From the NCBI RefSeq assembly GCF_001509585.1, contig NZ_LNCI01000006.1, positions 248,001 to 312,000 on the forward strand: 64,000 nucleotides of DNA, in the 5' to 3' direction. The notes under the pieces were generated by a model that was not told the origin of the DNA, ran no database searches, and was given only the letters and a program-made list of their open reading frames with translations. The position numbers and the translations under genes were made by a program. The DNA is from Tropicimonas marinistellae. Its GTDB lineage: Bacteria > Pseudomonadota > Alphaproteobacteria > Rhodobacterales > Rhodobacteraceae. How positions within the stretch are numbered: the stretch's first letter is position 1; the number at the start of each line of letters is the position of its first letter. Of this stretch, positions 25,565-42,476 are shown in pieces.

Positions 25565-27295
25565 ATGAGTTTGCGCCCCTTCGCCCTCGCCGAACGCTTC
25601 GCGACCGGCCTCCTGCGTGGAGGGGCGCTCCTCGTGGCCGCGATCTGCCTGCTGCCCATGGTGGCCGTGCTGATCGCCGCCCTGCTCGGCTCCACCGACA
25701 CGCTGCGGCACCTCGCCGACACCGTGCTCTGGCGCTACTCCGCCACCACCCTGCAACTCGTGCTGATCGTCGCGGCGGGCACGGCGGCCATCGGCACCGG
25801 GGCGGCCTGGCTCGTCACCATGACGCGCTTTCCCGGCGTCCGTCTCTTCGAGATCGCCCTCGCCCTGCCGCTGGCCTTCCCGGCCTATGTCATGGGCTAC
25901 GCCTACACCGACTTCCTCGACCACCCGGGCCCCGTCCAGACGCTCCTGCGGGACGTCACCGGATGGGGGCCGCGCGACTACTGGTTCCCGGAGATCCGCT
26001 CCGTCACCGGCGCGGCGGTGATGCTGATCCTGGTGCTCTACCCTTATGTCTACCTGCTGGCGCGGGCCGCCTTCCTGCAGCAGAGCGCAACCGCATTCCT
26101 CGCCGCCCGTGCCCTCGGACGCGGCCCCTGGGCCGCCTTCCTGCGCGTGAGCCTGCCCATGGCGCGGCCCGCCATCGCCGGCGGCGTGCTGCTGGCCGTC
26201 ATGGAGACAATCGCGGATTACGGAACGGTCTCCTACTTCTCGGTGCAGACCTTTGCCACCGGTATATACACGAGCTGGTTCACCATGGCCGACCGCGCCG
26301 CCGCCGCGCAGCTTGCACTCTGCCTGCTCTGCTTCGCCCTCCTGCTCGCCATGCTCGAACGCATGCAACGGGGCGCCGCCCGCCACTACGGCGCGGGCAA
26401 GCGGTTCGAGCGCCTGCCCCCCACCCCACTACGTGGCGCGCCGAAATGGGCCGCGCTGACGCTCTGTGCCTTGCCGGTCCTGTTCGGCTTCGCGCTTCCG
26501 GTGATCTTGCTCTTCACAATGGCGACCGGCTCGGAGCAATCGCTGCTGTCGGCGCGATACCTCGCCTTCACCGGCAATACCGTCATCCTGGCCGGCACCG
26601 CGTCGCTCCTGACGATGTTCGGCGCCATCCTCATCGGCTTCCGTCAACGGCTCTGGCCGGGCCGCCGCTCCGCCATCGCGGGCAACATCGCGCGCATCGG
26701 CTATGCCGTGCCCGGCGGCGTGATCGCGGTCGGGCTGCTGGTGCCCTTCGCGGCCATCGACAACGGTCTGGATGCCTGGATGCGCGCCACCTTCGGCGTA
26801 TCGACGGGCCTGCTTTTCACCGGGTCGATCTGGCTGCTGGTCTGCGCCTATCTCGTGCGGTTCATGGCGGCGGCGCTCAACGCCTACGACAGCGGCCTTG
26901 GCACGGTCCATCCGAACATCGACGCCGTCGCGCGCACCCTCGGCACGCCGCCGGCCGCGCTCGTGCGCCGCATCCACCTGCCGATCCTGCGACCCTCGGT
27001 GCTGACAGCCCTGCTCGTCGTCTTCGTGGATGTCATGAAGGAGCTTCCGGCGACCCTCATCATGCGCCCGTTCAACTTCGACACGCTCGCCGTGCAGGCG
27101 CACAGGCTGGCGTCCGACGAACGGCTCGCAGGTGCGGCCGTCCCCAGCCTCGTCATCGTCGGTGTCGGCCTGCTGCCCGTGATCCTCGTCTGCCGCTCGC
27201 TGGGAACGCGGAATTCGGACAGGAGCTCCCGGCTCTGGGCACGTCACCGCACCGGCAAACTCATTACATCGGCGGGCGGCGCCCCCGCCAAATAA
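25565..27295 (+). CDS. ferric-iron-type ABC transporter permease (FbpB/AfuB-like)
   Basis: A 576-residue inner-membrane permease made of two homologous six-helix halves, each with an EAA-type cytoplasmic loop for the ATPase (around ARALGRGPWAAFLRVSLPMARP and, in the second half, ARTLGTPPAALVRRIHLPILRP). This double-length arrangement is typical of Fe(III) permeases such as FbpB/SfuB. A periplasmic binding protein and an ATPase should be needed, but neither is adjacent. It lies 13 bases after tpiA. A small inverted repeat (CGTAC/GTACG, 27296-27308) follows the stop. Confidence 0.88.
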   Translation: MSLRPFALAERFATGLLRGGALLVAAICLLPMVAVLIAALLGSTDTLRHLADTVLWRYSATTLQLVLIVAAGTAAIGTGAAWLVTMTRFPGVRLFEIALALPLAFPAYVMGYAYTDFLDHPGPVQTLLRDVTGWGPRDYWFPEIRSVTGAAVMLILVLYPYVYLLARAAFLQQSATAFLAARALGRGPWAAFLRVSLPMARPAIAGGVLLAVMETIADYGTVSYFSVQTFATGIYTSWFTMADRAAAAQLALCLLCFALLLAMLERMQRGAARHYGAGKRFERLPPTPLRGAPKWAALTLCALPVLFGFALPVILLFTMATGSEQSLLSARYLAFTGNTVILAGTASLLTMFGAILIGFRQRLWPGRRSAIAGNIARIGYAVPGGVIAVGLLVPFAAIDNGLDAWMRATFGVSTGLLFTGSIWLLVCAYLVRFMAAALNAYDSGLGTVHPNIDAVARTLGTPPAALVRRIHLPILRPSVLTALLVVFVDVMKELPATLIMRPFNFDTLAVQAHRLASDERLAGAAVPSLVIVGVGLLPVILVCRSLGTRNSDRSSRLWARHRTGKLITSAGGAPAK

Positions 27296-27387: not shown

Positions 27388-28812
27388 TCACGCTCTCACC
27401 GCCGTAAAACTCGCACGAACCTGATGTGGATTCTCCTCCCGTCCCTGCTGCGCCATGCCGACCACCGAACCGACGATGGTGTCGCGCGCCGAACCTTGGT
27501 GCGGTTCGTCCGAGACGAGATACCCGACGAAGTCCCAATCCCACCGCGCGCCTTCGATCCGGCGGCTCCCCCGGAGCCGCAGCCGATAGGGCGCGCGCCC
27601 GGACACGTTTCCGCGGAGCCGGACGGACCAACCGTCGCCCGCAAGCTGGCCGGACAGGCTGTCGCCCGCCGCCGCCAGGCTTAACCTGTAGTCGCCCGGT
27701 GCCGGCTCGTCGCGGGATGCTCCCGGTTCCAGGGAAAAGCCGTGGCAACGCCATGTCCCGCCCATTGCATCGGCACGCTGCCGGGCCGCGTTGTCTTCGG
27801 GGCAAGGGACCGGTTGCCAATGCCCGCCCGGTGCGCGTCCGTCGCACAGCGGATCGCTTGTCGACACGCCAACCAGCACTCCGGCGGCTTCCCGCATCAC
27901 GTCCGTCGTCTCGTCGAAGTCGACCAGCACATCCTCGGTGCGCTCCGGCGTCTTTCCGAGAATGCGGTCGAGTTCCGACGGGGTATCGGTCAGGCGCGTC
28001 GCACCGAAGGACATTCCATGAACCCGCTCGGCCTCGTCGACGACATATCTGTCCACGCATTGCGGCCATGTCGGTTCGACCGTCGTTCCATGGGCGTCAT
28101 CGCCCGCCGACGTTGCACGCGACGTATCCCGCGCGTCCCGGACGCCCTCCCCGCCGCTGCGGGGGGCGACGCGACGCACGTCCATGTACCAGCGCGCGTT
28201 CGGGTAGGTGTCGAACAGCCATGCGATATTCCGAAGCTCCGGATGCTGTCCCGGTGACGTGGACATCAAGGCGGCCGGGGCACGCTTCGAACCGGACACG
28301 CTCGCAGCGCTGTCATCGTGGCCCCGCTGGAATACCCCTTGGAGGTCCTGATTGAACCCCAAGTCAATACAGCGGCAGGCCAGTCCGGCATGGGAATACC
28401 CCGGTTCGGCGGGGGCATCCGCAAAGAGTCCATCGGGCAGGTCCAGGTGCCTGCGGTCGGGATTGGCGCAAGGCAGAACAACGATCTGAAGCCGCTCGAA
28501 AATATCCCGGACGTTCTGGGCTTCGTAGATCGCCGGTCCGTAGACGAGCCCGGCCCCATTCGCGCGCGCCTTGAGCATATCGGCGGCGAGATAGACGAGC
28601 GCGTCCGGCGGCAGCCACCCGCCGGGGCACAGACCGCCGACCACGAAGACGGTTGCGCGAATTGGCGACCGGTCATCTCCCAGCACGAGCGCCCGGATTT
28701 CCTGCCCGTCGCCGCTCTTGTGCGGCATGGCAATCACCTCGACATGGTCGGGGTAGGTCTCTGCCAGCCCTTGCAGGCTGAGACCGATGTCATCGACGTT
28801 CTGGAAAGACAT
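27388..28812 (-). CDS. M14 carboxypeptidase-like protein with degenerate active site
   Basis: A 474-residue protein. Residues about 1-215 follow the M14 zinc-carboxypeptidase fold: VVGGLCPGGWLPPDAL aligns with the family's GIHAREW segment, LPCANPDR with the NPDG turn, CIDLGFNQD with the DLNRN segment and WYMDVRRV with the DLHS strand. By that alignment the zinc ligands are lost (His to Cys62, Glu to Gly65, His to Arg213) and the Asn-Arg pair becomes Gly-Phe. The last 140 residues look beta-rich. It is probably a non-catalytic binder or has new chemistry. It starts after AGGAAGGAG, six bases past the stop of a 53-residue peptide gene, and is divergent from the YcaO operon. Confidence 0.75.
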   Translation of the reverse strand: MSFQNVDDIGLSLQGLAETYPDHVEVIAMPHKSGDGQEIRALVLGDDRSPIRATVFVVGGLCPGGWLPPDALVYLAADMLKARANGAGLVYGPAIYEAQNVRDIFERLQIVVLPCANPDRRHLDLPDGLFADAPAEPGYSHAGLACRCIDLGFNQDLQGVFQRGHDDSAASVSGSKRAPAALMSTSPGQHPELRNIAWLFDTYPNARWYMDVRRVAPRSGGEGVRDARDTSRATSAGDDAHGTTVEPTWPQCVDRYVVDEAERVHGMSFGATRLTDTPSELDRILGKTPERTEDVLVDFDETTDVMREAAGVLVGVSTSDPLCDGRAPGGHWQPVPCPEDNAARQRADAMGGTWRCHGFSLEPGASRDEPAPGDYRLSLAAAGDSLSGQLAGDGWSVRLRGNVSGRAPYRLRLRGSRRIEGARWDWDFVGYLVSDEPHQGSARDTIVGSVVGMAQQGREENPHQVRASFTAVRA

Positions 28813-28818
28813 GGACTC

Positions 28819-28980
28819 TCACTCCTTCCTGTCAGCGCCGCCTGGGCGATCGGCAAGGATGACCCGCCGGGCCTCTCCATCCCGGCGCTCGAATCCGTTG
28901 CGGAATGATCGGCGCGCAGTGCCGCGCGTCAGCATCGGAACCTCGATGCATTTTGCACAGGTATTCGGTGCGGATGTCAT
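28819..28980 (-). CDS. 53-aa arginine-rich peptide, candidate modified-peptide precursor
   Basis: A short gene directly upstream of the M14-like gene (six bases between stop and start). It has an excellent ribosome site, GGGGGAG, six bases before the ATG at 28980. The peptide has two cysteines close together (Cys8-Ala-Lys-Cys11) and ten arginines, several in pairs (23-24, 32-33, 38-39). I recognise no family. Position, size and composition make it the best candidate substrate for the neighbouring YcaO/TfuA and guanidino-modifying enzymes. It lacks the classic Cys/Ser/Thr-rich core of azole peptides, so this is a hypothesis. Confidence 0.55.
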   Translation of the reverse strand: MTSAPNTCAKCIEVPMLTRGTARRSFRNGFERRDGEARRVILADRPGGADRKE

Positions 28981-29044
28981 TGCTTTCTCCCCCAGGTAGC
29001 GGCGGTACGAATAGTTGCGACGTTGTCCGGTCGCCCCGTCGCGC

Positions 29045-29269
29045 TCAGATCGCCGGTGCATCTGCCAGCCATGCCCGCCGTCCCGGTGTCCGACGGACGG
29101 CCCATGCATCACGCGGCCTCAATCCAAAGCGACCGGGGGAAAACGGATCGTGGCACGCGGGCCGCCCGTCGGTTCCAGCGAACGCGTACCGGCCGTGGCC
29201 GCGTCCGAAACAGCTATCGTTTCCAGGGCAATCAGCGACGCCCCGAAGTAAAGAATTCATGTCGATCAC
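29045..29269 (-). CDS. possible 74-aa Gly/Cys-containing peptide
   Basis: An open frame upstream of the 53-residue peptide on the same strand, starting with GTG at 29269 eight bases after GGAG. The first 50 residues contain three cysteines (14, 20, 39) in a Gly/Asn/Asp/Ser-rich setting; the tail is basic. It would be the first gene of the minus-strand unit. Codon third positions are less GC-biased than in surrounding genes, so it is either fast-evolving or not a gene. Kept at low confidence as an alternative precursor candidate. Confidence 0.25.
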   Translation of the reverse strand: MIDMNSLLRGVADCPGNDSCFGRGHGRYAFAGTDGRPACHDPFSPGRFGLRPRDAWAVRRTPGRRAWLADAPAI

Positions 29270-29568
29270 GTCCGAATCTCCGCTCTAAGCAGCAGCACTC
29301 CGACGGCCCTTGCCTATGGAACGAATGTCTCACCGCGACCGTGATGCGCCTGTGACGCGGGAGAATCGTCGCCCGTCGCGTGCTCTGCCCACCCCGGTAA
29401 TGTTGCGCGCCGAAATCCCGCGCCCTGAATGCGGCCGGACCGCGATCGCGATGCAACTCCCGAGCCGCAATTTCCCGCGCCCGCATGCCCGGCGCGCGCC
29501 CTCGACAAGACGACTCTTTCCGCGATCACGCCGGCGCGCAGGGGGCCGTGGGTCCTCTGCGGCATGGA

Positions 29569-29598
29569 TTGACAGAATCGCCACCGGCTCCCTAAACA
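29569..29598 (+). promoter_or_regulatory. putative promoter of the YcaO operon
   Basis: A perfect TTGACA (29569-29574) is followed after 18 bases by TAAACA (29593-29598), about 34 bases before the TTG start. The -35 is consensus; the -10 matches at about three of six positions. Confidence 0.45.
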
Positions 29599-29631
29599 TT
29601 AATAGATTTCTACAAAACCTAGGATAATTCA

Positions 29632-31041
29632 TTGCGACTCAGCGATTATCGCAGATTCAGCAGCTCCCGCCGGTTAACCGAGGAAGTCCCGAGATTTCGG
29701 TCACTTAGGGAGACTCTCACCGCGACAGCCGCAACTGCGCAATCGGCGACGGAGGCGCAGGACGCCCGCGCCTCGCATGTCGTCGTTTCCGGAGTTCTGG
29801 GAACAATTTCGCCGTTATTATTGGTTTGTCCAAACGATTTTATCACCTGGCGCCCATTTCGAAAAATCGTGACCGGAATCATGTCCGCGCTTTCGGAGAA
29901 AACGGACTTTATTGTTTGCGCGGATTGGCAATCCCCGGATGCGGAAACGAAACTCCGCGCCATGGTGGCGGATGCCGGCCTCACCATGGACCGGATCCGG
30001 CCCGTCGATATCGGCGGTCTGGAAGTCACGCCCTTCGCGCAGGACATCTGCGTTTGCCTGACCCCCCGCGACGCGGCCCCCGCGGATCGGTTCGTGTTTC
30101 TCGAACCGCTGGATTTCCAGCGCCGCGACGACCGGGAAATCTGCGACCGGGTGGGGGCGGCACTGTCCCACGACGTGCGTGCGTCGGGCCTGGAGTTTCA
30201 GGGCGGCAACCTGCTGTGCACCGACCGCCACATTCTGATCGGCGCGGATCATTTCGAGGCGAACCGCGAGGCAATGGCGCCCACCGATCCGACCGCCCCC
30301 GAACAGGCGGTTAGGATGGCCTTCAAGACATCTCTGGACGACACGCGCGCCCTCTTCCCGCTGGGTGCGCCGCAGGTTCCGGTCCCGCGTCCCATCGTCC
30401 GGCCCGGCGGCAGCCGGAAGGCGGTCCACTACATCCACCCCAGCGCCATCGGCCTCAACCAGCCGATCTTCCATATCGACATGTTCGTCACCCCGCTCGG
30501 CCCCATCGGCGGCATCCCGACCGCCCTGGTCGGCAAACCCACGCCGTCGCATCAGCACGGGCCCGAGGTCGACCTGCTCGCGGGCCTGCCGTTCGATACC
30601 GTGGTGCGGGCGCTCGAAAGTGCCGGCTACCGGGTCCTGCGCAACCCGATCACCACGGCGACGCTTCGCGCGAACGGGCAGCCCCGGCGCGTGCGGGACC
30701 TGTCGCCGTCGGACGATATCGAGGGGGCGCTCCGCGAGTCCGTGGTCGCACAAGGCGCTCAGCCGACCGATCACGTCGAGATTTTCGAACACCACATCCT
30801 CACCTGGAACAACGTGATCGTCGAAAACCGCGGCTCGTCCGGTTTGCATGTGGTCATGCCCACCTACGACCACCCGCATGACGCGGAATGCGCGGCGATC
30901 TACGAAAGCCTCGGCGCGCGGGTGTCCCGCCTTCCGGACATGACCCGCATGGTCGCGCTCCGGGGCGCCGCGCATTGCATGGTCCGCGACGTGGCACGCC
31001 ACCATGAAACCGACGCGGACGTCGGGCCAAGGATCGCCTAG
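29632..31041 (+). CDS. guanidino-group-modifying enzyme superfamily protein (arginine deiminase-like)
   Basis: A 469-residue protein with the GME fold pattern (arginine deiminase, peptidylarginine deiminase, amidinotransferase). Catalytic signatures in order: FAQDIC with Asp138 where the family has an RD pair, QGGNLL (190-195), HID (281-283), NNVIVEN (393-399) and RGAAHCM with the likely nucleophile Cys449. The His, Asp and Cys are retained, so it is probably active on a guanidine, perhaps a peptide arginine. I use the TTG at 29632 (AGGA seven bases before) because strand one of the fold starts before the first ATG at 29881. It is the first gene of the operon; its stop touches the next start (TAGATG). 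Confidence 0.75.
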   Translation: MRLSDYRRFSSSRRLTEEVPRFRSLRETLTATAATAQSATEAQDARASHVVVSGVLGTISPLLLVCPNDFITWRPFRKIVTGIMSALSEKTDFIVCADWQSPDAETKLRAMVADAGLTMDRIRPVDIGGLEVTPFAQDICVCLTPRDAAPADRFVFLEPLDFQRRDDREICDRVGAALSHDVRASGLEFQGGNLLCTDRHILIGADHFEANREAMAPTDPTAPEQAVRMAFKTSLDDTRALFPLGAPQVPVPRPIVRPGGSRKAVHYIHPSAIGLNQPIFHIDMFVTPLGPIGGIPTALVGKPTPSHQHGPEVDLLAGLPFDTVVRALESAGYRVLRNPITTATLRANGQPRRVRDLSPSDDIEGALRESVVAQGAQPTDHVEIFEHHILTWNNVIVENRGSSGLHVVMPTYDHPHDAECAAIYESLGARVSRLPDMTRMVALRGAAHCMVRDVARHHETDADVGPRIA

Positions 31042-32868
31042 ATGGACGCCGGCCGGACAGAGGCTTCAGGTCGCCCGACGCTGCACCTGTTCGGAACGCC
31101 GCATGCCGTGATTGGCACCGAAACGCACCCCTTCTTCGATCGCGCGGCACAGATCGTCGGCATCCTCGCGCTCGCACCGGACCAGATGCAGCGCCGTGCC
31201 CATGTCGCCGAAACGATCTGGGGCGACCCGCAGGCCGGCCTGACCAATCTGCGGCAGGCCCTGGCCCGGTTTCGCCGAAAATACCCGGCATTCTCGGCGC
31301 TGATCGAAGCGAACCCGAGCCGGTTACGGCTCGTCCCCGGGATCGTCGATACCGATGTTGCGGCGCTCCTGGCGCGTGGAACGGCCGCTGGGTCCGATGC
31401 GGCCCGGCCACTGCCCACGGGCGCGTTTCTCGATGGCGTTGATACGCCAAGCCATGCCTTCGAGGAATGGCTGCGCGATGCCCGCCAAACGCTCGACGGG
31501 CAACGGCTGCACCTGGCGTCTGCGGCACTCGATCAGGCAACGCGCTACGGCCATTGCGAGATGGCGCAATTCGAGCGGCTGGTGGAACAGCTCAAAGCCT
31601 TCGACGACGGCGGCGGTTCCGTCGACGCCACGATCGCGGAAGCCGCGCGTCGCATCGGCCTCGGCACGGTCGCGGCCTCCCCGGCGCCGGGGCCCGCCCC
31701 CGACACGTCGCAGCACGCCCCCCCGCCACGACTGGCCCTGTTGCGGCCGCAGGCAGATCGCTCTGTCGCCATTCCGCTGGAGCGTTTCGTCGGCGATGTG
31801 GCGGACCGCCTGTCGCGATTTCGCAGCTTCGCAACCCTGGCGCCGTTTTCCAGCTTCGCCATCGCGCCGGCGGACGTGGCCGAGGAAAGCGAGCGCCTGA
31901 ACATCGCCTATGTCGCCGAAACGCAGCTCCGCTACGACGGCGACGAGCCGATGCTCGCAATCCGCCTGATCTCGGCCAGCGACGCGCGGATCGTCTGGGC
32001 CGCCGAGTTCTCGCTGGCACCGGAAACGCTCGCGGATAGCTGCAAGCGGCTCGCACAAACGGTCGCCGCGAGCCTCGCGGATCACGTCGAGGCGGATCTC
32101 GCCAACCGCGAACGCGCCGCAGGCGCCCCCGGCGCCTACCTTCACTTCCTGACGGGGCGTGAGCAGCAATTGCGGGGCGATCTTCCGGCCCTGAGGCGCG
32201 CACGGAATAGTTTCCGCGCCACGCTTCGGGCCGATCCCGGTTTTGCCATCGCGCGCGCGCGCATCGCCGAAACGCTGGTCATCGAGTGGATATTGCGCGG
32301 CGGAACGGACGGCGAGCTTCTGGCCAACGCCCACAACGAGGCGCAACAGGCGCGGCAGATCGACCCCGGCGCGGCCGAGGCGCATTGGATCATGGGCTCG
32401 ACGCAATTGTACCGGCGGGAATACGATGCGGTGGTCTCGCATTTCGAGACAGCCCGCGCGCTGGCACCGCATTCCGCGGACCTGCTGCTGAATTTCGCCG
32501 ACGCGCTCTCCCACCTCGATGCCCCGGTGCGCGCCGAAAGCCTGTTTCAGAAGGCCGTCGACCTGAACCCGATGCCTCCCGACCGCTATTGGTGGTTCGG
32601 GGCGAGCATCGCGCTGGCGCGCGGGGACTTCGACACGGCCGCAACGCGCTGTGACAGGATCATGGCCGAGGAAGTCGCCGTCGGAACGCGTACCACGTGC
32701 TACGCCCTGAACGGTCAGGACGAAAAAGCCGCCGCCTGGGCGCACCGGTTGCGAGACGTGTTGCCAAACACGACCGTCGCCGAACTGTCCGAGTTGATAC
32801 CGGGTCCACAGGACACAGACCTTCATCGCCATTACCGGGAGGGCCTGCGAATTGCAGGCTTCATTTAA
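31042..32868 (+). CDS. SARP/BTAD-type transcriptional regulator with TPR domain
   Basis: A 608-residue regulator. Residues about 12-100 look like the winged-helix of SARP/AfsR-type activators: LHLFGTPHAVIG, an LALAPDQMQRRAHVAETIWGD-type segment and NLRQALARFRRKY. A BTAD-like helical part follows (105-195), then an alpha/beta segment like the TolB-like domain found with CadC-type regulators (about 230-350), and TPR helices to the end. Such proteins switch on secondary-metabolite clusters. It begins immediately after the deiminase-like gene's stop, so it is likely the pathway's own activator. No membrane helix is visible, so it should be cytoplasmic. Confidence 0.75.
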   Translation: MDAGRTEASGRPTLHLFGTPHAVIGTETHPFFDRAAQIVGILALAPDQMQRRAHVAETIWGDPQAGLTNLRQALARFRRKYPAFSALIEANPSRLRLVPGIVDTDVAALLARGTAAGSDAARPLPTGAFLDGVDTPSHAFEEWLRDARQTLDGQRLHLASAALDQATRYGHCEMAQFERLVEQLKAFDDGGGSVDATIAEAARRIGLGTVAASPAPGPAPDTSQHAPPPRLALLRPQADRSVAIPLERFVGDVADRLSRFRSFATLAPFSSFAIAPADVAEESERLNIAYVAETQLRYDGDEPMLAIRLISASDARIVWAAEFSLAPETLADSCKRLAQTVAASLADHVEADLANRERAAGAPGAYLHFLTGREQQLRGDLPALRRARNSFRATLRADPGFAIARARIAETLVIEWILRGGTDGELLANAHNEAQQARQIDPGAAEAHWIMGSTQLYRREYDAVVSHFETARALAPHSADLLLNFADALSHLDAPVRAESLFQKAVDLNPMPPDRYWWFGASIALARGDFDTAATRCDRIMAEEVAVGTRTTCYALNGQDEKAAAWAHRLRDVLPNTTVAELSELIPGPQDTDLHRHYREGLRIAGFI

Positions 32869-32884
32869 GCAAGGGAGAACCACA

Positions 32885-33313
32885 ATGGCCAATACACTCG
32901 ACGGAAAGTCATTCACGCTTTTCGAATACGCCGACACCGAGGAACCCGCAGTCTCTATGTGGGTTCATCTGCCCAGCCCGGACGACACGTCGAAGTCGCA
33001 ACCGATCCAGTTGCTTCAGGACGATCTCGATCAGGCGACGGAGGACGAATTCGAAGTTCAGACCGAAGTCACAGCGCAGGCCGAGACAACGACCCTGCGT
33101 GACCTCGGCATTCTGGATTTTGACGCGGTTTTCCTGGAATCCATGCGCTGGCGCCACACCGACGTGGATCAGGAAGCCCTTGAGGCCGCGCTGAAAGACC
33201 TCGTGGCAGCCGCAAAAACCCTCACAAGCCTCGGGCTGAGCATCGTCGTCGGCTTCCGCACGAACGAAGACGAAGAGATGCCCCCTGTCACCATCCGCGC
33301 CACACGCGGATGA
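32885..33313 (+). CDS. unknown acidic protein, 142 aa, in YcaO operon
   Basis: A 142-residue protein with a GGGAG ribosome site before the ATG. It is acidic, has no cysteine, and shows a predicted beta N-terminal half (SFTLFEYAD, VSMWVHLP) and a helical stretch (EALEAALKDLVAAAKTL) before a final strand ending TIRATRG. I recognise no family. Its stop overlaps the YcaO start (ATGA), so it is made together with YcaO. Possible roles are a leader-peptide-binding partner, an immunity or carrier protein, or itself the modified substrate through its C-terminal tail. Confidence 0.75.
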   Translation: MANTLDGKSFTLFEYADTEEPAVSMWVHLPSPDDTSKSQPIQLLQDDLDQATEDEFEVQTEVTAQAETTTLRDLGILDFDAVFLESMRWRHTDVDQEALEAALKDLVAAAKTLTSLGLSIVVGFRTNEDEEMPPVTIRATRG

Positions 33314-34440
33314 CATCCCTGCCCTTCGAGCCAGCCGCGTTCGGGATAACGCGGCTGGCCGAACAGGGACAACTTTTGCCGTTTGGCCTGCCGGTCTGGA
33401 GCGCGCTCCGACCGGCAGCGCGTTCCTTCGCAGTCACGAACGGCAAGGGCATGACAGATGCGCAAGCGCGGCTGACGGCCGCGATGGAAGCCGTCGAATG
33501 CGCCTGCGCCGAAGCCTCCGAACGTCTCGTCACGCGGTGGGCGAGCATCGCGGAATTGCAAGCGGAAGGCGCGCCGATCCTCGACTTCGCCACGTGCCTT
33601 CACGTGCGCAAACCGGCGCTCGACACCTCCCACATACGCGGCTGGGTGTCCGGCACGGTGTGGTCCACCGGGGCGCCGATCCTGGCGCCCTACGAGGTGG
33701 TCGGCCTGGATTACCGCGCCAATGCCGGCTGGGACCGCGACAGTTTCGCGATGGTCTCGGGCGGGCTGGCGGCACATACCGATGCAGACGCCGCGCGGGC
33801 AAACGCACTCCGCGAGGCGATCGAGCAGGACGCGCAGGTTTTCCTGCGGTCGGTTCCGGGCTACGCCCGCCGCAGGCGCCGCCTCGACCCGCAGGCCGTC
33901 CTTCCCGAAAGCGTCGCGCCGTTGGTGGAGCGTCTCGCCGCCATGGGCACGTGGGTCGAGTTGATCGACGCAACAACGGACATTCGCGTTCCCGTGGTCA
34001 TGGCGCTTCTGCGCGAGGCGGGCAACGGCGCCGCGCTGGATCGCCGGGCCGCCGGTTGCGCCTGCCGGGCATGCTATCCCGACGCCGCGGCGGCCGCGTT
34101 GCTCGAAGCCGTGCAAAGCCGCGTCACGGATTTCGCGGGGGCACGGGACGACATCGTGGCGGCAGATTTCGCGCCGCGCACGGGCGCCGAACCGCGCCCG
34201 CCACCGACATCCGCGACCCTGCCCCGGCAAAATGCGGGCGCATCAATGGCCGAACTCTGCGACGCGCTGGCGTCAGCCGGTCTCCCGCAGGTTCTCGTCT
34301 TCGACATCCGCCCGGAGGGACACCCGCTCCACTGCTGCAAGGTGCTCGTTCCCGGCCTCGAATGCCTCTCCGAAGGCCCGCGCCAGCCGCGCCGGGGGCG
34401 GAGATTCGCGAGCCGCGCCCTCGCGAGTGTGCTGCGATGA
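33310..34440 (+). CDS. YcaO-domain ATP-dependent cyclodehydratase/thioamide enzyme
   Basis: A 376-residue YcaO protein. The ATP-binding signature SFAVTNGKGMTDAQARLTAAMEAVE (from about residue 39) includes the paired Glu60/Glu63, and NALREAIEQDAQ matches the second nucleotide motif. The C-terminus lacks the PxPxP ending of azoline-forming YcaOs and instead ends in a basic helix; a GCACRACYPD segment holds three cysteines. YcaO enzymes activate a backbone amide by phosphorylation for cyclisation or for sulfur attack. With TfuA next door, thioamidation is the favoured reaction. It overlaps both neighbours by four bases (ATGA). Confidence 0.92.
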   Translation: MTSLPFEPAAFGITRLAEQGQLLPFGLPVWSALRPAARSFAVTNGKGMTDAQARLTAAMEAVECACAEASERLVTRWASIAELQAEGAPILDFATCLHVRKPALDTSHIRGWVSGTVWSTGAPILAPYEVVGLDYRANAGWDRDSFAMVSGGLAAHTDADAARANALREAIEQDAQVFLRSVPGYARRRRRLDPQAVLPESVAPLVERLAAMGTWVELIDATTDIRVPVVMALLREAGNGAALDRRAAGCACRACYPDAAAAALLEAVQSRVTDFAGARDDIVAADFAPRTGAEPRPPPTSATLPRQNAGASMAELCDALASAGLPQVLVFDIRPEGHPLHCCKVLVPGLECLSEGPRQPRRGRRFASRALASVLR

Positions 34441-35141
34441 GCCGTTTCGTCTGTATCGGTCCGACAGCCCACGGCCTGCCTGAATCGGCCTTCCGGAGGG
34501 TCGCCAGGCACCCGCCCGCGGCCCGCGGCGACCTGCTGCGCCTCGTTGACGACGGCGCCACCGCGATCCTTCTGATCGATGGGCTCTACGGAGATCGTCC
34601 AAGCGTCTCGCACAAGGAAATCCTGTTCGCATTGTCGCGGGGCGTGGCGGTCATCGGCGCGGCCAGCCTCGGCGCCCTCCGCGCCGCCGAATGCGCGGCC
34701 TTCGGCATGGCCGGCATCGGCGCGGTCTTCGCCGACTACCAAAGCGGCGCCCGCACGAGCGACGCCGATGTCGCCGTTCTGCACGCCCCGGAGGCCCTGC
34801 GCTGGCGCCCCCTGTCGGTCTCGCTGGTCGACATCGACGCGACCCTCGATGCCGCAGCCGAACGGATCGGGCCCACCGAGGCCGCGCAGCTCGCATCGGC
34901 CGCGCGGCGCCTCCATTTCGAGCGCCGCCAATGGGACGCGGTCGTCGCGGCGGCGCAGCTGCCGCCGGATCGCATCCCGCTCCTGGAACGCCACCGGGTG
35001 TACCGCAAACGCGAGGACGCGCGCGCGGCGCTGGATCTGCTCCGCGCCGGTCCGGCGGCCCCGGTGCCGCTCGATTTCGAGCCCACGGACTGCTTCCTGG
35101 CCGACCTGCGCCGGTTCGCACCCGGCCTGCTGCGCCGCTGA
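34437..35141 (+). CDS. TfuA family protein
   Basis: A 234-residue TfuA-like protein. The family core is recognisable: GPTAHG near the N-terminus, IDGLYGDRPSVSHKEIL (48-64) and VIGAASLGALRAAE (72-85). TfuA was first seen in the trifolitoxin cluster. In methanogens it partners YcaO in making the thioglycine of methyl-coenzyme M reductase, probably by delivering sulfide. Its ATG overlaps the YcaO stop, so a working pair is very likely. No mcrA or other obvious thioamide target is in the window. Confidence 0.9.
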   Translation: MSRFVCIGPTAHGLPESAFRRVARHPPAARGDLLRLVDDGATAILLIDGLYGDRPSVSHKEILFALSRGVAVIGAASLGALRAAECAAFGMAGIGAVFADYQSGARTSDADVAVLHAPEALRWRPLSVSLVDIDATLDAAAERIGPTEAAQLASAARRLHFERRQWDAVVAAAQLPPDRIPLLERHRVYRKREDARAALDLLRAGPAAPVPLDFEPTDCFLADLRRFAPGLLRR

Positions 35142-35223
35142 GGCGTTACGGCCGCGTCACGCTCCCGCTGACACGCTCACGTCCAATGCAATGCCGGCCC
35201 CCCGGCGAACCCAGGAGAACAGC

Positions 35224-37383
35224 ATGGACGACGAGCTCCGCCCCATTCCGGATGGCGCAATTCGCAAGACGATTGCCCAAAGGGTGCGGGACACGGCCAC
35301 CGAAACGGCAGACCGGCGCACGGACGCCCTCGAACAGGCGCGCAATGCCGATCTGGACCTGGCGCTCGGATCGAACGCCCCCTGGGTGCCGGCCTGGGGC
35401 ACCTTCACCAAGGGTCTCGCGCATGATGCATTCGGGCGCGTCAGGAGCACGGACCTGCGCGCGCTGATCGCCGCCCTGAACCAGGCCCCGGACGATGCGG
35501 GCCAATCCGGGGAATCGCCCTTTCCCGGCGTCTACAAGGGCCCCGGCGCAGGCCGCCCCGCGCGGTTCGATGCGCCGCTCTACACCGGCACCTTCGCGCG
35601 CCCGCAGGCCAGCCACAACGGCACGGCCCGCGCCTGGGAAAGCCCGCTCTGCGGCCATGTCTTCGACCTCGAAGGCGCGGATGCCGACCAGACCGCAATG
35701 CCGCCCGCCCCGGAACTGGGCTCCGCCGAGGTCACCGCCGAACTGGCCGAGATCTACTGCGCCGCGTTGCTCCGCGACACGCCGTTCACCGCGTGGCAAA
35801 CGGACCCGGACGTCGCGCAACTCGTGGCAAAGCTCACCACCCTGAGTTTCTTCCAGCCCAACACCCCGCTTCCCCCCGACGCGGTAAAACGCAGGACGGC
35901 GCGCCTCGCGCAGGGCCAACTGACCGAGTCGGTGCTGTTCCGGGGCTCCACACCGGGCGCCAAGGCTGGCCCCTACATCTCCCAGTTCCTGCTGATCGGA
36001 AACGCGGAACGCCCCTCGCCCGCGGCCGAGACCGACGCCGACCCCCTCCCCGGCGATGCCTTCGCGCGCGCGCAGGTCTTCGTTCCCAAACCCGGCGACA
36101 CATCCGCCGCCAACGCCGTCGCGGCGGCCGACGGGTTCATCCGCTACGGCATCCAGGCGATCTCGCAGCAATACATGGGGCACGCCGACGGGCTCGATCA
36201 CATGACCGAATGGGCCAGCTGGCTGGATGTCCAGAACGGCGCGAACCGCAAGGACAATTACGACCATTATCGCGACAGCCCGAGGTTCATCTCGACGCCG
36301 CGCGATCTGGCCACCTACGTCCACTTCGACGCGCTCTACCAGGCCTATCTGAACGCCGTGCTGATCCTGCTCGGCATGGGCGCGGAAACCGATGCCGGCC
36401 TGCCGGAAGGCCCGGGAAACCCCACGCGGGACGCCTTCGCCACATTCGGCGGGCCGCACATCCTCACGCTCGTGACCGAGGTCGCGACGCGGGCGCTGAA
36501 AGCGGTGCGCCGGCAGAAGTACAACATCCATTTGCGCGCGCGCCCGGAGGCGCTGGCCGCCGCCGTCTCCCTGGCCTGGCGCGGCGGAGCGGCGGCCGAC
36601 AGCCTCGGCAATCAGAAAACGGCCTGTATCGCGACGATGCTGGAGCTTGCCAATACCAGCCTGCTCACCCGCATCCGCGACCACAACATGGCGATGAACG
36701 ACGCGATCTGGTCCCGGCAATTCGCGGTCGATCTCGGGCCGCTGGACGCGGCGCACAATGCCCTCCTGCCCATGGCGTTCCCGGAGGGCTCGCCGATGCA
36801 TCCGTCCTACGGGGCCGGTCACGCGACCGTCGCCGGGGCCTGCGTGACGGTGGTGAAGGCGTTCTTCGAGATGTTCGAAACCCCGGTCGCACGCACCGCC
36901 TTCAACATCTACGACGTGGTCGACCGGCCGAAGGGCTACCCCGCCCTCAAGTTTCCCGCCGAACTCTTCGGCGCGGAGAAACACCTGTTGGGCGACAGCG
37001 CGCCGTTCGAGCCCGACCCCGGCGCTGACGGCACCCGGCTCCGCCGGTCCGGCCACGCGCCGGTGACCACGCAGGGCGAGTTGGACAAGCTCGCGGCGAA
37101 CATCTCCATCGGGCGGAACTTCGGCGGCGTCCACTACTACACCGACTATTACGAATCCCTGCGCATGGGCGAACGCATCGCCGTGTCGATCCTGCAGGAA
37201 CAGATGCTGACCTATCGCGAACCGGTCTTCATGCGCTTCACGAGCTTCGACGGCGACCGCATCATGCTCGCCGGCACCGGCGGCAGCCGCGGGCAGAACG
37301 ACGCGCTGGTCTATGTCTGGGACGACCAGGGAACAGGCGGCGACGCCGCGAGCTACGAAAACTGGTGGAACCGTCATAGCTGA
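35224..37383 (+). CDS. vanadium-dependent haloperoxidase family protein
   Basis: A 719-residue member of the PAP2/vanadium haloperoxidase superfamily. All three vanadate-binding regions are visible: KYNIHLRARPE (Lys and Arg), HPSYGAGHATVAGA (Ser, Gly and acid-base His) and SIGRNFGGVHYYTDY (Arg and vanadate-ligand His). These enzymes use peroxide to oxidise halide and halogenate or oxidise organic partners. There is no signal peptide, so it should be cytoplasmic, unlike many exported homologues. It has an AGGAGA site and follows tfuA after 82 bases on the same strand. A role in tailoring the YcaO product is inferred; independent peroxide or iodide metabolism is possible. Confidence 0.88.
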   Translation: MDDELRPIPDGAIRKTIAQRVRDTATETADRRTDALEQARNADLDLALGSNAPWVPAWGTFTKGLAHDAFGRVRSTDLRALIAALNQAPDDAGQSGESPFPGVYKGPGAGRPARFDAPLYTGTFARPQASHNGTARAWESPLCGHVFDLEGADADQTAMPPAPELGSAEVTAELAEIYCAALLRDTPFTAWQTDPDVAQLVAKLTTLSFFQPNTPLPPDAVKRRTARLAQGQLTESVLFRGSTPGAKAGPYISQFLLIGNAERPSPAAETDADPLPGDAFARAQVFVPKPGDTSAANAVAAADGFIRYGIQAISQQYMGHADGLDHMTEWASWLDVQNGANRKDNYDHYRDSPRFISTPRDLATYVHFDALYQAYLNAVLILLGMGAETDAGLPEGPGNPTRDAFATFGGPHILTLVTEVATRALKAVRRQKYNIHLRARPEALAAAVSLAWRGGAAADSLGNQKTACIATMLELANTSLLTRIRDHNMAMNDAIWSRQFAVDLGPLDAAHNALLPMAFPEGSPMHPSYGAGHATVAGACVTVVKAFFEMFETPVARTAFNIYDVVDRPKGYPALKFPAELFGAEKHLLGDSAPFEPDPGADGTRLRRSGHAPVTTQGELDKLAANISIGRNFGGVHYYTDYYESLRMGERIAVSILQEQMLTYREPVFMRFTSFDGDRIMLAGTGGSRGQNDALVYVWDDQGTGGDAASYENWWNRHS

Positions 37384-37448
37384 GGGGGTGGTGGCGCAGG
37401 TCGCTCACGATCACCCACGCCAGATTTGGTCCACGTTCCAGAACGAAA

Positions 37449-37468
37449 CGCCCGGCCAGAGGGGTGGG
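37449..37468. repeat. short repeat, copy A
   Basis: The 20 bases here match 37930-37949 at 19 of 20 positions (core CCCGGCC-n-GAGGGGTGGG). A third partial version, AGGGGTGGGCCGGGCG, is at about 37488-37503. Close by (about 37534-37554) is a GTAGGGCGGGCTTCAGCCC hairpin of the kind found as dispersed extragenic repeats. No gene is seen between the haloperoxidase stop and 37674. Confidence 0.5.
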
Positions 37469-37673
37469 CGAGAGACGCCCGATCAATAGGGGTGGGCCGG
37501 GCGATGGAGAACGTTTTCACAGAATGGTTCGGCGTAGGGCGGGCTTCAGCCCGGCGGCCCGCATCACGGTGTATGGCGGCCAGTCGGACGAAACCCCAGC
37601 CCATGATTGCTTCCATTCGCCGCGCGGCCTCGGGATTGCGTTCCCCCGGCTCCGGGCGAAACTCCCCATCACG

Positions 37674-37901
37674 ATGGCAGAAACCGATCCCCTCGAACCC
37701 CTCGGATTGCTGCACCGGATTCGCCGGCGCCGCGAACGGCGCCGGCTCGAGCTGATCTACGAAAACCCGCGCGGAACGCGGAAGGGCTGGGCGCGGGCGC
37801 ACCGCGGAATCGGCTACGCCCGCAGCGTCCTGTGGTCCGTGTTCTGGACCGTGGCCATCGTGTTCGGCGGCGCGGCCTTGGCAATCCACTTTCTTGCGTA
37901 A
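37674..37901 (+). CDS. small single-pass membrane protein, 75 aa
   Basis: An ORF with a basic N-terminal half (HRIRRRRERRRLELIYENPRG) and a clear C-terminal transmembrane segment (VLWSVFWTVAIVFGGAALAIHFLA). Codon use resembles real genes. The ATG at 37674 has no strong ribosome site. No family recognised. It lies in an otherwise gene-poor stretch after the haloperoxidase gene and is convergent with lepA. It could be an inner-membrane anchor protein, but this is only a shape-based guess. Confidence 0.5.
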   Translation: MAETDPLEPLGLLHRIRRRRERRRLELIYENPRGTRKGWARAHRGIGYARSVLWSVFWTVAIVFGGAALAIHFLA

Positions 37902-41558: not shown

Positions 41559-42476
41559 TCAGGCGATTGTGTCGCCGTCGTCGAAGATACGGATATCGTT
41601 GATCAGGATATCGGCGTCCTTGATACCGCGCATGACAATCTCCTGATCGCCGAAATCAAAGACAACCCGGCCCTTGACCACGTCGGCAAACTCGTTGACG
41701 ACCTGTTTTCGGGTGAGGTCCGCGCCGTCCCAAAGACCGGCATGGAATGCCAGGGTATCGACGTCGTTCTCGAAATCCATGACCTTGTCGCGACCAGCCG
41801 CATCGGTAAACGCGATCACGTCCTGGCCGAGCCCGCCGGTGAGCTCGTCGTCGCCCGCGCCGCCGACGATCAGGTCGGCGCCCTTCCCGCCACCGATTGT
41901 ATCGTCACCGCGCTGGCCAAAGAGCGCATCCGATTTGGATCCGCCCATTATCGTGTCATCGCCCTTGCCGCCCTTGAGCAGATCGCTCCCGTCGCGACCC
42001 TTCATCATGTCGTTGCCTTTATATCCAAGGGCAACATCATCGGATGAACTCAGCTTGAACGTGTCGGCACCGCTGAACATCTTCTGCAACAGTTGAACGT
42101 CGTCCTTGGTCGATCCCGTCTCCATCGCCGCGGTGATCTCCGCCGCGTCTATCGAGATCTTCTGGACCGCCCACATCTTGTTCCAGTTCTCGCCGTCCCA
42201 ATACTCGAGAAACCAGCCGGTCACGGTCCCGCCGATCATCGCATTGTCGGTGCTTTCGCCGGCGTCACCTTCGGCGAGGATGTTCGCCCCGGCGAACTGC
42301 ATGTTCAGGGAGACACCATCCTCCTCGAAGACGATGCCAAAAGCATCTCGGTACTTCGTGCCCCAGTACCGGAAAGGCTCGTTGTCGTAGAACGCGAAGC
42401 TCAGCGCATTGTCGAGTACGACACTGAAGTTGAACCCGTCCTGCCCGAAGAAATCCGCCGCACGCACGTTAGCCAC
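41559..42476 (-). CDS. RTX calcium-binding protein
   Basis: A 305-residue protein without a signal peptide. About residues 150-220 contain six or so glycine-rich nonapeptides (such as GGKGDDTIM, GQRGDDTIG and GGAGDDELT) that form a calcium beta-roll, and the C-terminal 80 residues resemble a type I secretion signal region. It should be exported in one step by a TolC-dependent machine, which is not encoded nearby. The N-terminal 140 residues are a beta-rich domain I do not recognise. The start is GTG with GGAGATACCA before it. Likely a surface or extracellular protein. Confidence 0.85.
   Translation of the reverse strand: MANVRAADFFGQDGFNFSVVLDNALSFAFYDNEPFRYWGTKYRDAFGIVFEEDGVSLNMQFAGANILAEGDAGESTDNAMIGGTVTGWFLEYWDGENWNKMWAVQKISIDAAEITAAMETGSTKDDVQLLQKMFSGADTFKLSSSDDVALGYKGNDMMKGRDGSDLLKGGKGDDTIMGGSKSDALFGQRGDDTIGGGKGADLIVGGAGDDELTGGLGQDVIAFTDAAGRDKVMDFENDVDTLAFHAGLWDGADLTRKQVVNEFADVVKGRVVFDFGDQEIVMRGIKDADILINDIRIFDDGDTIA

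Follow-up and report, generated by a model that had tools for sequence, protein, structure and literature searches.

The genome of Tropicimonas marinistellae carries an operon in which a YcaO-TfuA enzyme pair is combined with a deiminase-like enzyme. The operon lies in a stretch of 64,000 nucleotides (contig NZ_LNCI01000006.1, positions 248,001 to 312,000; hereafter the window), and its region 31042-35141 is, by sequence comparison, a divergent relative of a cassette that is conserved among alphaproteobacteria, occurs mainly in rhizobia, and in most instances has a deiminase gene after TfuA. On the forward strand, the first gene encodes a deiminase-like protein of the guanidino-modifying superfamily (29632..31041, with start candidates up to 29881). 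It is followed by a TPR regulator (31042..32868), u142 (32885..33313), YcaO (33310..34440), which is predicted to be the ATP-dependent amide-activating enzyme, and TfuA (34437..35141), its predicted sulfide-delivery partner. u142 encodes a protein of 142 amino acids (aa), a candidate substrate by position, which has the place and length of a gene, here called u, in the related cassettes. A TAGATG junction joins the deiminase gene to the regulator gene, and four-base ATGA overlaps join u142 to YcaO and YcaO to TfuA. A sequence-only reading of this DNA had proposed that these genes, together with three neighbors, constitute one peptide-modification pathway. All of the genes that it named were found at the positions it assigned, and its operon junctions are borne out by the coordinates of the deiminase gene, the regulator gene, u142, YcaO, and TfuA.

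YcaO, TfuA and the regulator

The window YcaO scores 157.1 bits against PF02624 (curated cut-off 25.7; E 9e-46) and the adjoining TfuA scores 131.9 bits against PF07812 (cut-off 30; E 1.2e-38). The pair is thereby confirmed, both members being adjacent and above the curated Pfam cut-offs. The YcaO is the only copy in the genome. TfuA has been reported to employ a Ser-Lys pair (PMC13185837, accessible text); S77 and K191 of the window TfuA are invariant across 45 TfuAs, and may or may not be that pair. Formation of azolines by this YcaO, instead of thioamides, is improbable. A trifolitoxin-type YcaO with TfuA has been linked to rhizobial azoline antibiotics (PMC9670871, accessible text). However, TfuA is the accepted partner in thioamide formation according to the accessible text of two reports (PMC13185837; PMC13174530), no dehydrogenase or cyclodehydratase partner was found beside YcaO in the Pfam scan, and, among NCBIfam models, the YcaO of McrA-glycine thioamidation gives the window YcaO its best E-value, although the match falls below the cut-off of that model.

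The window YcaO is placed as sister to 20 cassette rows and seven Labrys rows in a 50-row tree (fork support 100/97). The window regulator is likewise sister to the cassette regulators; in a tree of 41 rows it lies outside the cassette and Labrys rows and inside their fork (31 rows, 100/99). The window branches are long in both trees, and the window TfuA shares at most 50% identity with a cassette TfuA. The regulator gene is present as the sequence-only reading proposed, but its label there, SARP-like, counts as an inference, because the protein matches only TPR (TPR_19, E 9e-9) and, weakly, a HilA family (E 0.001).

Recurrence of the cassette

The comparison comprised 48 loci: eight from the family of the window, six from plasmids, and 34 from genome contigs, which were scanned with the window and two cassette plasmids as seeds. 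The family loci derive from TfuA matches in 198 genomes, nine of which match, including that of the window. Two plasmid loci (L022 and L023) were picked for their deiminase, and both are without YcaO. The order regulator, u (~140 aa), YcaO, TfuA, deiminase is present in 20 of the 48 loci, a count that is not a frequency. The deiminase gene is followed by a helix-turn-helix (HTH) gene in 15 of these cassettes and by a gene of ~75 aa (as called) in 14. The named cassette loci span Rhizobiaceae, Stappiaceae, Phyllobacteriaceae, and Dongiaceae; two loci (L020 and L034) are both from Rhizobium daejeonense. According to the sequence-only reading, the co-location would be accidental if homologous YcaO-TfuA pairs occurred without conservation of any other gene of the group. 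The 20 cassettes show otherwise, and the core grouping of regulator, YcaO, and TfuA relatives is not accidental. The proposal of a single pathway survives in part: YcaO-TfuA, a deiminase, and a gene of ~140 aa recur together in other alphaproteobacteria, but the haloperoxidase, M14-like, and 53-aa genes have no match in the 48 loci.

Profiles of u and of the deiminase, both built mostly from cassette members, were compared with 385 genomes of the class. The u profile matches three genomes and the deiminase profile four, one of which is that of the window. The three non-window genomes are the same for both profiles and belong to one genus, and each of them carries regulator, u, YcaO, TfuA, deiminase, and HTH genes. 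They represent one lineage and not three independent cases, because the profiles are mostly cassette-built and one of the three (G535) nearly duplicates L045, a Dongia record that is itself in the profiles; the deiminases of G535 and L045 share a tree tip.

Most of the YcaO-TfuA pairs observed outside the seeded scan are without a deiminase. Five of the eight family loci have another layout, in which YcaO and TfuA are followed by a metallopeptidase-like protein and a protein of 167-189 aa. In this layout, six of ten related last-gene proteins end in short tandem repeats (L012:7607-8110, L015:9496-10014, L053:4945-5586, L055:13974-14591, L057:13960-14556, and L058:13956-14552). The repeat units are VSGAR (eight in L012, nine in L015), SAGSF (four), and YSGGKA (four to six). 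Judged from their sequences, these six proteins look like multi-core precursors of the thiovarsolin kind, with Arg/Lys in the repeat.

The deiminase

As a single query, the window deiminase open reading frame (ORF) matched no superfamily entry in Pfam, NCBIfam, or the PDB. A 16-row profile that includes it finds the agmatine deiminase/peptidylarginine deiminase structures 3hvm and 2cmu at E 3e-4, with DDAH as a weak further match (E 0.07); PF04371 is matched by two of the 16 rows (best E 5e-10). With residues counted from TTG 29632, every one of the 16 rows has Asp138, Gly191-192, His281, Asp283, and Cys449; the Asp, the His-x-Asp, and the Cys are the catalytic residues of the guanidino-modifying superfamily. 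Amidinotransferases and deiminases belong to one superfamily. The profile match and the invariant catalytic positions thus uphold the earlier assignment of a guanidino-modifying enzyme. The candidate starts are TTG 29632, TTG 29821, GTG 29869, and ATG 29881; the first is disfavored because a promoter-like site ends at 29628.

A small molecule might instead be the substrate of the deiminase, namely agmatine, arginine, or a released product; only YcaO-TfuA would then act on protein. We regard this as possible but rather doubtful. The nearest solved relatives do include agmatine deiminase and DDAH, and relatives are encoded on plasmids away from any YcaO. However, all three non-own matches of the profile in the 385 genomes lie in the cassette (the profile being mostly cassette-built), and 15 deiminases of the cassette group together in a single clade (100/100), apart from nine ordinary agmatine deiminases. 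Of 100 genomes of the phylum, 33 carry the ordinary family, PF04371; no member is found in the genome of the window. One stand-alone relative, on a Paenibacillus polymyxa plasmid (L022:11770-14908), adjoins a gene for a DNA/RNA non-specific endonuclease, and another, on a Vibrio maritimus plasmid (L023:7727-13155), is near a gene with an S-type pyocin domain.

The candidate substrate

In all 20 cassettes, u lies between the regulator gene and YcaO. The reading of u as a substrate is drawn from three features: it adjoins each YcaO, in Labrys too; it is in tandem in Mesorhizobium albiziae (two u genes, L039:8864-9878); and three Labrys u proteins bear repeats. Three Labrys loci without deiminase have two YcaO genes each, each with its own u, and a fourth has one of each. 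The repeat-bearing u proteins (L042:13839-14492, L043:13732-14406, and L046:13833-14468) have a short tandem-repeat insert between conserved ends and sit beside repeat-free paralogs in the same locus. In L042 the unit is QAGV/QAGI, repeated about 10 times; the unit in L043 is different. A Labrys regulator-u-YcaO unit was observed at L054:7363-11131, with no TfuA found within the fetched locus.

The best substrate candidate in the window, by position, would be the 142-aa protein between the regulator and YcaO, and not the 53-aa ORF. Alternatively, u and u142 might be recognition or scaffold partners of YcaO-TfuA, with the true precursor being another small or distant ORF, such as the 53-aa ORF. 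The predicted model of u, with three strands followed by three helices, recalls a recognition element, and structure searches with it gave nothing firm. This alternative seems unlikely to us. The u142 model was not usable, and u142 is not tied to u by structure.

Proposed pathway

The observed gene content and order, their recurrence, the kinship of YcaO and the regulator, and the retained catalytic residues of the deiminase are consistent with the following scheme. The regulator would switch the operon on. YcaO would bind the 142-aa protein and activate a backbone amide with ATP, TfuA would supply sulfide to give a thioamide, and the deiminase would then turn an arginine of the same substrate into citrulline. 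A backbone oxygen is probably replaced by sulfur in a small protein, and an arginine of the same protein may be converted; u142 as the substrate, the thioamide as the product, and a peptide as the target of the deiminase are the inferred elements. For the whole, a divergent thioamide cassette with a ~140-aa substrate protein and arginine deimination as a second step, we consider the chances about even.

Several observations weigh against this scheme. The seeds of the locus search favor the cassette. The neighborhood check among close relatives, which the sequence-only reading had suggested, gave an adverse result: the cassette is in none of the eight other TfuA loci of the family. Regulator, u, and YcaO occur without a deiminase in the four Labrys loci. 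u142 agrees with u in position and length only; there is no detectable sequence similarity between them (hhalign probability 0.2%), and the u142 sequence has no match in the 48 loci or elsewhere. Within Rhizobiaceae, u is unusually conserved for a precursor (70-76%, versus 45-56% for YcaO, TfuA, and deiminase and 58-61% for the regulator); in pairs with L039, L044, or L045, however, it falls to 26-41%, against 37-48% for YcaO. All 14 rows from loci with a deiminase keep a conserved Arg in u, as do three of four rows without one, which makes this residue non-discriminating. Finally, the window deiminase falls outside the cassette deiminase clade, near the stand-alone P. polymyxa and V. maritimus plasmid genes, its exact place being weakly supported; forcing it into the clade makes the tree 3.1 log units worse, a difference too small for rejection (p-AU 0.161). 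Either the lineage of the window acquired a deiminase of its own, or strong divergence has set the gene apart. The deiminase gene lies at the front of the operon and may have been separately recruited. The link between deiminase and cassette is supported in kind; shared inheritance is putative. A more elaborate version appears very improbable: a class of ribosomal products in which a folded ~140-aa substrate protein receives a thioamide from YcaO-TfuA and a citrulline, made from one of its arginines, from a dedicated deiminase, the window version being separately assembled and also halogenating its product.

Neighboring genes

The gene at 35224..37383 (forward strand) encodes a vanadium bromoperoxidase, a neighbor that is at most a putative member of the pathway. 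It matched vanadium bromoperoxidases in the PDB (best 5lpc, E 5e-109) and no Pfam or NCBIfam model; its identity and its position 82 bases 3' of TfuA agree with the sequence-only reading. That it tailors the product is distinctly unlikely. In its favor, the gene lies on the strand of TfuA with no terminator-like site between them, it has its own ribosome-binding site, and the whole block is missing from the congener stretches described below; on the other hand, it is absent from all 48 related loci, and its kin are bromoperoxidases of algal and cyanobacterial type. Such bromoperoxidases are known to work alone. Among nine genomes of the genus, it is present only in that of the window. The haloperoxidase looks like a local extra, and a tailoring step is unsupported.

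On the reverse strand, the M14-like protein (27388..28812) matches PF00246 (E 7e-9), the match being confined to residues 13-119. HxxE is the zinc-ligand motif of M14 metallocarboxypeptidases; the window protein reads CPGG at that place, as judged by eye, and so it probably lacks the zinc ligands and is predicted to be inactive, in agreement with the earlier label of pseudo-carboxypeptidase. The gene had no match in the 48 loci. Apart from the M14-like part, the C-terminal residues ~333-474 of the protein match hypothetical proteins encoded on Rhizobium and Mesorhizobium plasmids, in one instance beside a gene for an M4 family metallopeptidase. The 53-aa ORF (28819..28980, reverse strand), claimed earlier as a peptide gene, is present with a good ribosome-binding site and overlaps the ribosome-binding site of the M14-like gene. 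Its coding status is putative: the codon-based gene caller did not call it, no family was matched (one chance-level Pfam row, E 0.08), and the 48 loci contain no match. The haloperoxidase, the M14-like gene, and the 53-aa ORF are treated here as neighbors rather than cassette members.

The ABC permease gene that ends at 27295 in the window lies at most 2 kb from tpiA in seven of the eight congener genomes; in the eighth (G938), the contig ends 2.6 kb past tpiA. The called genes of 27388-37901, as queried without the 53-aa ORF, were found in none of eight congener tpiA stretches and seven lepA-side stretches. Six congeners have tpiA and lepA on separate contigs; in the other two, the distance between these genes is 36 and 366 kb. 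YcaO occurs in two of the nine genomes of the genus, the second being of a distant type. The absence of the block from the congener stretches fits one accessory block and does not by itself show one pathway. Elsewhere in the window, the ORF at 21199-22629 matches RimB aspartic endopeptidase (residues 7-140) and RimK S6 glutamate ligase (residues 163-457), and is an apparent RimB-RimK fusion. The protein encoded at 41559-42476 contains an RTX-type calcium-binding-like repeat stretch that missed all curated cut-offs.

Comparison with known systems

The published systems are compared here as given in the accessible text of each paper. Known YcaO-TfuA product classes have been listed together with a new homocitrulline class (PMC13174530), and TfuA-associated YcaOs were earlier set aside as having an unknown substrate (PMC4603692). 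Rhizobium and Agrobacterium are among the dominant proteobacterial families of TfuA clusters (PMC8120280). Cassettes like these are probably included there, and the cassette may well be drawn already in the supplementary cluster maps, although the accessible main text has neither "deiminase" nor "haloperoxidase." No paper in the searchable literature was found to contain TfuA together with agmatine deiminase, or TfuA together with haloperoxidase. The cassette described here would couple two predicted protein modifications, a backbone thioamide and the deimination of an arginine, within a single operon that recurs in several alphaproteobacterial families, and supplies a defined substrate candidate that is open to simple co-expression.

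The thiovarsolin cluster of Streptomyces varsoviensis has the YcaO-TfuA pair in common with the cassette, and its precursors have zero to five repeats, as u ranges from repeat-free to repeat-bearing (PMC6511847). It holds an amidinotransferase-type enzyme that is dispensable for the product known from this cluster. However, its precursor, regulator, and further genes are different, and the accessible part of that paper names no deiminase. In the std cluster of Streptomyces thermodiastaticus, thioamidation by YcaO-TfuA is followed by formation of a ureido side chain, homocitrulline (PMC13174530); there the ureido group is made from lysine by a carbamoyltransferase and then hydroxylated, with no deiminase in the accessible description. 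Citrulassins provide a peptidylarginine deiminase within a ribosomal peptide pathway, as proposed here, but they are lasso peptides, and the opening of the abstract does not mention YcaO-TfuA (PMC12971885). In methanogens, YcaO-TfuA thioamidates a protein, McrA, and not a short peptide (PMC5589413). The McrA thioamidation models are the nearest named NCBIfam models to the window, with scores far under the curated cut-offs, and the system differs from the cassette in that its substrate is an enzyme subunit.

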